Shown in pieces: positions 1,985-29,044 of a stretch of 29,248 bases of DNA. Numbering within the stretch: the stretch's first letter is position 1; every line of letters starts with the position of its first letter. The notes beneath the pieces were generated by a model. It was not told the DNA's origin and ran no database searches. It worked only from the letters and a program-made list of their open reading frames with translations. Where the stretch lies: positions 1 through 29,248 of the IMG/VR virus record IMGVR_UViG_3300016457_000830. One strand, 5' to 3'. The position numbers and the translations under genes are program-made. This DNA is from a virus.

Positions 1985-2025
1985 TTTTGGGAACTACGTT
2001 CAAAATCCGAATGTAGTTCCCAAAA
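1985..2025. terminator. 17-bp stem hairpin between convergent genes (likely bidirectional terminator)
   Basis: Arms 1985-2001 and 2009-2025 pair over 17 bp with a 7-base loop (2002-2008). The only non-Watson-Crick pair is G1998 with T2012, a G-U wobble in plus-strand RNA but an A-C mismatch in minus-strand RNA. It fills the gap between the last early gene and the end of the giant late gene. The arm ends are T4 and A4, giving the usual A-stem-T layout, but no longer U-tract follows. The core is a copy of the dispersed 23-bp palindrome. Confidence 0.75.
1994..2016. promoter_or_regulatory. Dispersed palindrome site A
   Basis: CTACGTTC, seven bases, GAATGTAG. This matches the window-wide consensus CTNYGTTY-N7-GAACRNAG except for T in place of C in the right arm. 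It is embedded in the hairpin between the convergent early and late blocks, and is the only site whose arms pair almost fully. Confidence 0.75.
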
Positions 2026-2027
2026 TC

Positions 2028-5000
2028 TTATATCCCACCTACTCTGCCAATTCCTCTTATCCCACCAGAAGATTTCTTAGGTTTCTTGATATATCTACCC
2101 ATCATGATATCAGCAGCAGTTCCATCTTTCTTATAAGCCCTATAACCTTTAAGCATAGTTGAGAACCCTTCAATACCCATAAGCCTCGGAATAGCAGTCA
2201 AATCTCCTTTGCCTAGTTTAACCAACTGATCTGTTACAACACCGGCTAGCTCACTTCCATATCTGGCTTTGCCCCCATAGACAGGAAGAAATTCTAAGAG
2301 TTCTTTTGCAGCTTCTTTAATAGCATCTACCTTTTCTCCTGTCTGCTCCAGTTTTTCTTGATACGCCTTGATAGGCTGAGGAATAGGAGAACTCCATCCT
2401 GCAGAATTAAAACCCTTTGAGATAATAGTAGAAGCCATGACCCAGTTCATAACTCTTGCCACCTGTTGAGATTTGGTTATATCAGGATTCTTAATCCCTA
2501 GCACATGACGAGTAAGGTAATCAAAATTAGCTATAGTAAAGGTCTGAAGAGTCGTAATAAACTTTCCCTCGGCAGTTCTTTGTGCAGGAGATCTAGCGCT
2601 CTTAGCTGCAGACCCCTGGGCTCTAACCACCATATCATCTGCATAATTTCGAGCGAATTTCTTCAGGGCCTTCGCCCCATCTGCAGAATTCATGCTTCTA
2701 TATTCAGTAGATTTTTTAAATATCTTCTTGCCCTTAGCTTCTCCCTCTAACCAAGTAGAATAAGAAACAATACTATCAGTGAGACTCAAAGGAACTGTTC
2801 CAACATTTCGCACTTTTTTTCTCCCCACATGTAGAGCTCTGCCTACCGCCCCTGGAAATAGTGGATTAGAATCAGCAGCATCCATAAGAATAGATTCAGG
2901 AGTTCTTGTAGTAAGTATGTTAGACTCTCGAGAAGCTCTGCGAATTTCTTCTGGGCTAGTCAATCGAGCTATTCCTCTCAGCATTCTAGGAAAACCTAAC
3001 TCAGCTATGCTATTATTGAGAGAAGAAAACTGAACCACAGCACTCTTTGGTGCATACGAGATAAAAGAAACGGCTACATTCCCACTTAACTTACTCATAA
3101 ACCTACGGGTTTTAGGATTAGTGATAAACATAATAGGCTCTATACCTTTCTGATAATCTAACCATTCGTTTAGAAAATTATAAGTATTATTTGAATTCTT
3201 ATAAAGTTCAAACTTAGGTTGGAGGAGTTCATGCAAGTAAGCAATTGGCTCAGATTTACCTAGAATATCACTGGCAATTAAGGCATAGCTATTAAAATTA
3301 TCTATTGCGTTAAGTCTCAAATGGCCAGGAACCTCAGGCCCACCTCTAAACTTCTCATGGCCTCTGAATCCTACAGTTCGGCCTTTTACATCTCGTTTTG
3401 TGGGCAACTTACTAACTCTCTCCATCCCTTTACGGAAAGCATCAATAGAAGCATAATTAGAAATGTTCTCCATTTGCTTAAGCTTATTCATATCATGAAT
3501 CCAGACAGAATAATTCTCTACTGGCGGAAATGTTTCTAAGCCATTTGCCTTTCGAGTTCTGTTAATTTTAATATAAAGATCTTTATATATCGCTTGTAAT
3601 CTATTATAAACACCCATCTCCTTTGCATTAAGATTCTTTACTATCTCTACTCCTTGCGCTTCCAATCTAGCCTTACCATTTGGCTGTTTACTAATAGCAT
3701 AATTATCAATTCTCTGGAGACTCTTATATCGCCCCTTCAGCGGCAGAGATTTCTTAAGACTGTTAGATTCTTTAATCAACTCCTTTCCTATATCAGAACT
3801 TCTTTTTTCCCCTTGAACAACCTTACGATAAAAGAGTTCTCTGATAGGCTTACCAATTTCTGTGAATATCCCATCTGATGTTGCCAGATGTCTAACCTTC
3901 TCTCCAAATATAGGCTTACCAATATCAGGAGTTTGCTCAATAATCCTAGCATCTCTACGATTCACCGCAGGAGCTTTACGCCCATTCTTCAAGGATCTGG
4001 CTGGGAGTAGTTCATTAGGATTCTGCCCTGGCTTCAGCCATTGGGATTCTTTATCCGGTACAACTATGTTCGTTTTTTGAACGGAGGAGGATTTGATTAG
4101 AATTTTATTAATCTGATCTTGCGATAATCCCTTTCCGATTAGTAAATCTCTGGCGTCACGCATAGAAACTTTTCTGCTCTTTATAAAATCTCTGATTTTT
4201 ATTATTCCTTCTAGATCTATTGCAAGTTCTCCTCTCTCATTTTTTAAAATACTATTTGGAATACCTTCTTCTAAAACAGTAGGTTTCTTATAATCTTTAG
4301 AAAGGACACTTGCCGCTGGATGTTTATAACTTCTTTTTGGTCTTTCATATACCTGATATTCAGTAACTATTTTTCTTCCTACTTTCTGTTTTCCTAATGC
4401 TGAAGCAGATAATGGCATGTAAGTCCTGGGCTGATAATAAAATTTATCTGTAGGACGAAAACCCGCAGTTACAGCAAAATTATACATCTCATTAACTGAT
4501 TGAATAGTTTTAGCATTTGTAGCATCCTGTATCTTAATGATCAACTTTCCTCCCGGCTTAAGAAGACTATAAATATTTGACGTAGCTAGATCAAACATCT
4601 GCCATAAATGCTTGACATTAGGAGAAGCTCCAAAGCGATTAACCATCTTACCTTTAGTTTTTTTATTAAGAGGTTGTATTAAATAATGAGGATCATATAA
4701 AATAGATTTAATAGTCTTATCTTTAAAAGGAATAGATTTACGATCAGTAATATCTGCCTTAATTGTATCCTCTGTTTGAGGATATTTATCTAACTTATGC
4801 TTAGGAGAAATTCCAATTTTCTTTTCGATATTTCCTAATCCATAAGTAACATCCATGTCTATTTTACCATCAGTATGTAGATATAATAGATCTTCTATAA
4901 GATGCTTTTCGTTATGATTAAAGTTTCTGATATATTTATCCTTCTCTAATCTACGAGCAACTCTTTTTAAGAGTTTCATAGTTTCAGTAATAGGCCCTGT

Positions 5001-28665: not shown

Positions 28666-28685
28666 CGATAGATAGCGATAGATAG
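28651..28685. repeat. Tandem 10-bp repeat over the orphan gene's stop codon
   Basis: GATAGCGATA is repeated three times (28651-28680) and then starts a fourth copy. The frame uses the first one and a half units as the C-terminus (DSDR) and stops at 28663-28665. As the unit is not a multiple of three, slippage in the first units would alter the C-terminus. Confidence 0.8.
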
Positions 28686-28712
28686 TGGTTAAAAGTTAGC
28701 TAAAACATAACA

Positions 28713-29044
28713 GGTTAGATCATGTGGCTAGGAGTCAAACACAAGCGAGCAACTGGATACAGTGATAGAATGCTCCAGAAGCGCTAGGTATATGATAGAT
28801 GTTGGGCGGTTTAGATCTTTTAGATAAAATGGTTTAATAGAAGCAACTAACTGGAGGAGTAATCTAGAATCTACCTACCATGAACCGTCATTCCAACACG
28901 CACCATACACTCTGTTCATAATTTGAACGGAGATGGGTGGAGGTTAGATTGGGTTAGATGGGTTAGATGGTGTATCTATGCATGGTATAAATGGTAGGAT
29001 AGACGGATTTAGGCATATTAGTGGGTGTTAGTGGGTGGTTAGAT
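28713..29044 (+). repeat. Iteron-like GGTTAGAT repeats
   Basis: Exact GGTTAGAT occurs at 28713, 28942, 28952, 28961 and 29037, and GGTTTAGAT at 28808, all in the same orientation within about 330 bases. Three copies are nearly back to back, 9-10 bases apart, about one helical turn. This resembles replication initiator iterons, but no initiator gene is in view. Confidence 0.6.
28910..28932. promoter_or_regulatory. Dispersed palindrome site K
   Basis: CTCTGTTC-N7-GAACGGAG, an exact fit in the gene-free region, 9 bases before the clustered GGTTAGAT repeats. Confidence 0.8.

Follow-up and report, generated by a model that had tools for sequence, protein, structure and literature searches.

The question raised by this locus is why a phage should carry near-identical 23-bp palindromes dispersed over its DNA, and which protein reads them. 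We analyzed a stretch of 29,248 nucleotides (the window), which covers part of the genome of a podovirus-like phage. Its minus strand carries genes for terminase, portal, capsid and tail-fibre-like proteins, and its plus strand a DNA polymerase exonuclease gene. The closest GenBank relative was Desulfofustis phage LS06-2018-MD01, with a capsid identity of 46%.

The palindrome array of the window

The original prediction had listed twelve copies of the palindrome, and all of them were present at the positions it had named. Ten sites matched CTNYGTTYNNNNNNNRAACRNAG exactly, and those at 1994 and 17412 had one mismatch each. The pattern searched was CTNYGTTY-N7-RAACRNAG; the refined consensus was CTnYGTTYRAAWTTYRAACRnAG, in which the dyad spans all 23 bp. 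As a control, 1000 first-order Markov shuffles of the window were scanned. These yielded on average 0.002 exact matches and 0.07 matches with at most one mismatch, compared with 10 and 12 observed, and the maxima in any shuffle were 1 and 2, in agreement with the claim that chance copies should be very rare. Two additional half-sites at 18736 and 29200 were also found as described, but single arms can arise by chance alone.

Three of the sites are located within genes (4064, 7886, 11024) and six in the gaps that separate late genes of the same orientation (13258, 17376, 17412, 20777, 22967, 25600). Site 1994 lies in a convergent gap, where the inverted repeat is lengthened by the flanks TTTTGGGAA/TTCCCAAAA, and sites 27767 and 28910 are found in the poorly coding right end (Table 1). 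Relatives with 64–87% DNA identity carried sites at the same place for 4064, 13258, 17376/17412, 20777, 22967, 25600 and 27767. Offsets were mostly within about 20 bp, and the degenerate letters differed between relatives. Both members of the pair 17376/17412 were kept in L044 (6054, 6090), and site 20777 was kept in L044, L045, L046, L047, L048 and L049. Close relatives thus retained the sites by position rather than losing them, and the twelve sites across the window are real and genome-wide, most of them kept in relatives.

Table 1. Palindromic sites and marker genes of the window
Feature	Coordinates	Strand	Context or evidence
DNA polymerase exonuclease subunit, marks left block	843..1430	+	PHROG 192, RNase_T, collinearity
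Palindrome CTACGTTCAAAATCCGAATGTAG, one mismatch	1994..2016		Convergent gap, gene 1764-1982(+) / giant gene 2028-7964(-)
Palindrome	4064..4086		Within 1978-aa gene; equivalent place in relative L384 (10805) has a site
Palindrome	7886..7908		Within 1978-aa gene, 5' part
Palindrome	11024..11046		Within gene 10326-11156(-)
Palindrome	13258..13280		Fills gap 12816-13250(-) / 13281-13742(-); kept in L049 (10192), L384 (16999)
Palindrome	17376..17398		3' of major capsid gene
Palindrome, one mismatch	17412..17434		Second of pair 3' of major capsid gene
Major capsid protein, clade marker	17445..18725	-	PHROG 1328, E 1.5e-31
Palindrome	20777..20799		Gap between genes 19977-20774(-) and 20800-21051(-)
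Portal / head-tail adaptor protein	21053..22957	-	PHROG 332; same family as 'portal protein' of OP947158
Palindrome	22967..22989		Immediately 5' of portal gene; kept in L049 (533)
Palindrome	25600..25622		Directly 3' of terminase large subunit stop codon; kept in L005 (3790), L006 (3938)
Terminase large subunit	25623..27155	-	PHROG 38, E 1.4e-53
Terminase small subunit with HTH	27156..27677	-	Same family as OP947158 'terminase small subunit'; weak GerE match
Palindrome	27767..27789		5' of terminase small subunit gene; kept in L005 (1368)
Palindrome	28910..28932		Close to the fragment's right end

Lineage-specific palindromes and the ParB-methyltransferase fusion

Relatives were gathered by scans for capsid and terminase relatives and for the palindrome. 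The resulting set comprised complete or near-complete genomes of 44–52 kb plus large fragments, in which palindromes were searched de novo by an information-filtered, leave-one-out procedure. All near-complete relatives have a conserved early gene for a fusion protein, which joins ParB_N to a ParB-type HTH and an N6_N4 methyltransferase. An intact fusion was encoded by 46 relatives, comprising both complete genomes and large fragments, and each of these carried its own dispersed palindrome in 5–22 copies, above shuffled controls. The array is therefore present in the window as predicted, but is not peculiar to it, since each lineage has its own version of the palindrome. Examples far above shuffles were CTATGTTACATAATGTAACATAG in G009 (17 sites), GATATATAAATAATTTATATATC in G017 (22 sites), GACTGTTTAAAATTTAAACAGTC in G020 (18 sites), CTATGGGGATTAAATCCCCATAG in G013 (11 sites), CTATGTCCCAAATTGGGACATAG in OP947158 (10 sites) and CTTTGATGATTAAATCATCAAAG in G079 (22 sites).

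The palindrome measured 23 bp in 43 of these relatives and 24 bp in the other three (G058, G077, G078), in which each site is one bp longer. Four seeming exceptions were resolved, three as the 24-bp palindrome and one as a weak 23-bp set; the 23-bp array was weak in G064 and G030. No palindrome array was detected in PaP2, Kuura and CRP-810, which are without the fusion, and no clear array in nine relatives whose fusion is divergent or HTH-less; G048 yielded weak motifs.

The fusion gene is absent from the 29 kb of the window. In the collinear relative L384 it precedes the homologue of window gene 843-1430 by about 4.7 kb and is therefore expected a few kb beyond the left end of the window; we infer that it resides in the missing part of this virus. 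Contig L383 originates from a sample that also yielded the window-like contigs L005 and L044, and it carries the fusion together with nine window-type sites. Its recognition helix, GKSKGSLSGD, agrees with T6 and C/T8. The closest collinear contigs likewise encode the fusion next to the same palindromes as the window. A dimeric DNA-binding protein had been proposed before and is retained here, but its probable identity as a ParB-HTH-DNA methyltransferase, encoded outside the window, had been missed. As a separate candidate, the terminase small subunit of the window (27156-27677, weak LuxR-type HTH) was considered as the binder and rejected, as it belongs to terS at the family level.

The fusion matched ParB_N (PF02195, E 1e-10) and N6_N4_Mtase in Pfam. 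The nucleotide-binding boxes of the ParB N-domain were invariant in the alignments (G56 R58 R59 and E92 N93 R96). Comparison of the fusion profile with the PDB revealed Noc, ParB, KorB, CcrM and RsrI, the match to Noc spanning residues 6-206. An AlphaFold2 model had a pLDDT of 86.5, and its predicted HTH consists of helices 134-141 and 145-160. Foldseek searches with this model returned CcrM and Noc, and the best ParB-like structural match was Noc (7nfu). The C-terminal half is N6_N4_Mtase, and a ParB C-terminal dimerisation domain was not found there. The methyltransferase contains motif IV DPPY and FxGxG in IV-then-I order (beta-class-like), with structural matches to CcrM, RsrI and N4C-MTase. 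DPPY was present in all site-bearing lineages except OP947158 (DFPY) and G016 (DPDW). Because motif IV is degenerate in these two site-bearing phages, methylation would not be needed everywhere, and at least in these two the clamp may have a role other than catalysis.

Covariation of recognition helix and site

Covariation was scanned in 49 lineages between about 430 protein columns and 11 half-site positions, using APC-corrected MI. The two top pairs of this unbiased scan were column 147 with site position 8 and column 148 with site position 6. These columns are the equivalents of ParB S172/R173 and hold the two residues with which the predicted recognition helix opens; in the AlphaFold2 model, helix 145-160 begins at the covarying column. 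In Caulobacter ParB, contacts to parS are made by S172 and R173, and the exchange R173Q contributes to an experimentally shown switch from ParB to Noc, with Gln reading adenine (PMC7383237).

The combinations of residue and base followed a simple code. His148 occurred with G6 in 7 of 8 His lineages (Fisher p 7e-7), the exception being G056, which combines His with GTCC, and Arg148 occurred with G6 in one lineage. Gln148 was accompanied by A6 (3/3), Asp147 by G8 (6/6) and Thr147 by A8 (7/7). Lineages with Ser147 used C, T, A or G.

Because raw MI mainly reflected common ancestry at site position 1, tree-aware tests were added. A tree from which the HTH had been left out showed 5 origins of G6 and 6 each of Asp147 and G8. 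The same residue-base pairs recur on separate branches of this tree, and all differing independent pairs were concordant; in the sign tests, the supported pairs were too few to reach 0.05 one by one. Among 43,848 tests assessed by phylogeny-aware simulation, the four strongest fell in the recognition helix (columns 147, 148 and 153), and ten control families revealed no comparable cluster of covariation. Since the simulation p-values lie near the sampling floor, significance rests on the location of these hits and not on a corrected p-value.

Because their letters change in step with its DNA-reading helix, the palindromes are, judged from sequence, very probably the docking sites of the ParB-methyltransferase fusion. 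Between lineages, site set and HTH appear to switch specificity together, including the one-bp change in spacing of all sites in G058, G077 and G078. Joint switching of this kind would be anticipated if competing phages shut out each other's clamps.

Site layout, rival readings and proposed role

The layout was analyzed for 599 sites in 46 genomes against a null in which sites were dealt randomly to intergenic gaps (300 draws). Intergenic sites numbered 382 of 599, compared with 41 expected by length, and these counts are approximate because the gene calls were simple ORF calls. The palindromes were spaced every 2-4 kb. Spacing was more even than under random intergenic choice (mean CV of the gaps 0.55 versus 0.92) and the maximum gap was shorter (7.0 kb versus 10.4 kb); the null mean reached the observed value in none of the 300 draws. 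In co-oriented gaps the median distance was 6 bp from stop codon to site and 16 bp from site to start codon. Divergent promoter gaps were under-used, with 24 sites versus 62 expected. Immediately 3' of the capsid gene, 30 of 36 genomes had a site, and 1 of 42 had one at the 5' end of the fusion gene. Neither ParA (PF13614; controls positive) nor integrase (PF00589) was detected above the family cut-off in any of 22 genomes. Taken together, the regular spacing and the scarcity of sites in divergent promoter gaps suit genome coverage better than gene control.

Several other explanations for the palindromes were weighed. The center of the motif and the genome are A/T-rich, as an artefact of chance or composition would have it, but the excess over shuffles, the positions kept in relatives and the 46 relatives with their own versions reduce its probability to a negligible level. 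RNA hairpins that terminate transcription or direct mRNA processing between late genes would account for inverted repeats in intergenic gaps and for the long stem to which site 1994 extends. However, in 575 sites from about 50 relatives, Watson-Crick pairing was below independence at arm pair 3-21 (286 seen versus 340 expected, SD 7.4) and at pair 4-20 (321 versus 373, SD 8.3), and pair 4-20 was a C-A mismatch in 128 of these sites. The arms pair less well than independent arms would, which argues against hairpins and strengthens the earlier observation of non-covarying arms. The deficit also suggests that perfect inverted repeats are selected against. The motif is also without a U-tract and some sites lie within coding sequence, so that hairpins were rejected as highly improbable. 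Promoters of a single-subunit RNA polymerase were rejected because the sites are symmetric, as judged from the motif. The palindromes might also be read by another conserved phage protein, such as the small, possibly ribbon-helix-helix-like fam18, with the fusion linked by ancestry only. The same block does encode several small conserved proteins without an assigned function, fam18 near the fusion. Against this, the covariation is strongest at positions known to set ParB specificity and reappears on different branches, no comparable cluster was seen for fam18, fam17, fam22, fam15 or the structural proteins, and fam18 was found in only 38 of 49 lineages. Another binder is thus very unlikely; fam18, fam17, fam22 and others were rejected as candidates on their unclustered covariation.

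A regulator of the KorB or stoperator type would involve a ParB-like (or other phage) protein that silences or stops transcription genome-wide, the methyltransferase being secondary. The position of sites behind a stop codon and ahead of the following start codon in co-oriented gaps is in line with this, as are the degenerate catalytic motif of two site-bearing phages and the precedent of KorB, a ParB-type clamp that slides from OB sites and represses at a distance (PMC11790492). Yet the divergent promoter gaps hold fewer sites than expected, some sites lie within genes, the spacing is regular and the binder gene almost never has a site at its own 5' end; without integrase in the 22 genomes, lysogenic repression is not evident. 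We consider such a regulator unlikely, and silencing by a prophage repressor of the stoperator type, which the original prediction had raised, is not supported by the counts for integrase, divergent gaps and binder gene. A low probability is also assigned to coating, condensation or segregation, in which the clamp would help to organise the viral DNA or to package it, in the manner of a centromere or of SMC or as a packaging aid. The even spacing and the site 3' of the capsid gene would suit this role, and dispersed centromere-like sites are known in prophage N15, RK2, pSM19035 and pMF1 (PMC3235114). It is opposed by the lack of ParA above the cut-off, by the missing signs of a plasmid-like or lysogenic life style (integrase in 0 of 22 genomes) and by the methyltransferase that stands where ParB has its C-terminal dimerisation domain. 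Partition of the ParABS type, also proposed earlier, is likewise not supported, with no ParA above the cut-off in the 22 genomes. What stands of the earlier interpretation is a dimeric phage-encoded DNA-binding protein in preference to an RNA hairpin.

We therefore regard the palindromes as probably being the specific recognition (loading) sites of a phage-encoded ParB clamp/HTH/DNA methyltransferase fusion. The sequence evidence comprises the dispersed sites, their conservation, the co-occurrence with intact fusions, the residue-base covariation and the predicted fold; from it we infer binding itself, clamp closure, sliding, methylation and the biological purpose of the fusion. In the fusion dimer, each recognition helix would read one half-site. 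The protein would then close upon nucleotide binding and slide off along the DNA, by analogy with ParB, Noc and KorB. With 10-20 loading sites, 2-4 kb apart, the clamp would reach all of the phage genome and hardly any other DNA. Its likeliest use would be delivery of the methyltransferase along phage DNA only, in self-marking or anti-restriction; alternatively, the clamp might serve in coating or organising the DNA. Self-marking is put forward tentatively, as possible rather than probable: a clamp loaded only at phage-specific palindromes would carry the methyltransferase along flanking DNA, and the loading site, not a short target motif, would restrict methylation.

Noc, which mediates nucleoid occlusion in Bacillus, has many dispersed NBS sites. 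Its Gln at position 173 reads adenine (PMC7383237), comparable to Gln148 and A6 here, whereas the fusion is a phage protein with a methyltransferase and the sequence of its sites varies by lineage. KorB of RK2 is a ParB-family CTP clamp with several dispersed OB operators on a small replicon (PMC11790492, PMC3235114). In contrast to the fusion, KorB acts with KorA at promoters and is without a methyltransferase domain; in the phages, divergent gaps are avoided. With ParABS the fusion shares the ParB_N fold with GxRR and ENxxR boxes, the ParB-type HTH, palindromic sites and the placement of specificity residues where the recognition helix begins. It differs in having no ParA and a methyltransferase instead of the C-terminal dimerisation domain, and its 10-20 sites are evenly dispersed rather than clustered at one locus, with a dyad of 23 or 24 bp and not 16 bp. 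The stoperators of phage L5 resemble the array in that many dispersed short sites are served by one phage protein, but their sequence is unrelated; the sites described here are palindromic, the binder is of another family and integrase is missing from the 22 genomes.

Fusions of a ParB-CTPase fold with an N6_N4 methyltransferase, the same domain pair, are enriched in phages and among the commonest phage ParB fusions, with an unknown role, according to the available part of a PNAS survey (PMC12704722). In that part, ParB-fold fusions are described as possibly binding ATP or GTP, or nothing detectable, and the nucleotide specificity of the fold as not readable from sequence; it gives no DNA site or genome-wide array, whereas an array and a specificity code are proposed here. 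The literature searched, which included few subscription papers, contained no genome-wide, lineage-specific array tied to a phage ParB-methyltransferase and no comparable phage-wide system, and on stoperators and palindromic arrays only loosely related reports, in agreement with the prediction of a system not described before. These fusions now have a probable DNA target, an array of sites throughout the genome and a code linking residues to bases, and their function thereby becomes directly testable. If the clamp delivers methylation, this would be a new way of confining DNA modification to one genome, by the loading site. The approximately 49 natural pairs of helix and site provide a ready set for studying the evolution of ParB-type specificity.

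Variation of the palindromes among relatives

At the degenerate positions, complementarity between the palindrome arms was lower than expected under independence, by 7 sd at the pair of arm position 3 and opposite position 21 (575 sites, ~50 relatives), as if selection acted against perfect inverted repeats. All palindromes in the subclade of relatives G058, G077 and G078 (records L291-L293, L346-L347 and L367-L369) measure 24 bp and not 23 bp, a concerted 1-bp spacing change across the whole site set. The site directly 3' of the major capsid gene (17376-17434 in the window) was kept in 30 of 36 genomes, and some phages carry two sites at this position.

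Motif IV and the proposed binding protein

Methyltransferase motif IV is degenerate in Desulfofustis phage LS06-2018-MD01 (OP947158, 10342-11634, L013; DFPY) and in the relative G016 (L154; DPDW). Both retain the palindromes and thus provide a natural test of the need for methylation. In the distant relative G048 (L354-L356), the HTH is partial. Here, two weak inverted repeats, of 25 bp (CGTAGTTTAATCCGATTAAACTACG, n = 7 sites) and 21 bp (TCCGGGTGAGCCTCACCCGGA, n = 12 sites), are candidates only for a link to its fusion, the ParB N-domain/HTH/methyltransferase protein proposed to bind the palindromes.

Additional features of the window

The neighbouring genes 9444-10313 and 10326-11156 belong to the same family, which is single copy in most relatives, and likely represent a tandem duplication. 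The right end (27749-29248) is poorly coding, with short tandem repeats and G/C runs; it may be the point where the assembly stops or a terminal region that is non-coding.

Repeats in the window
Feature	Position	Location
Low-complexity TTC/CTT array	20589-20684	within gene 19977-20774(-)
40-bp tandem repeat x2	27825	right end
Tandem repeat GATAGCGATA x3.5	28651	right end
Tandem repeat GGTTAGATG x3	28942	right end
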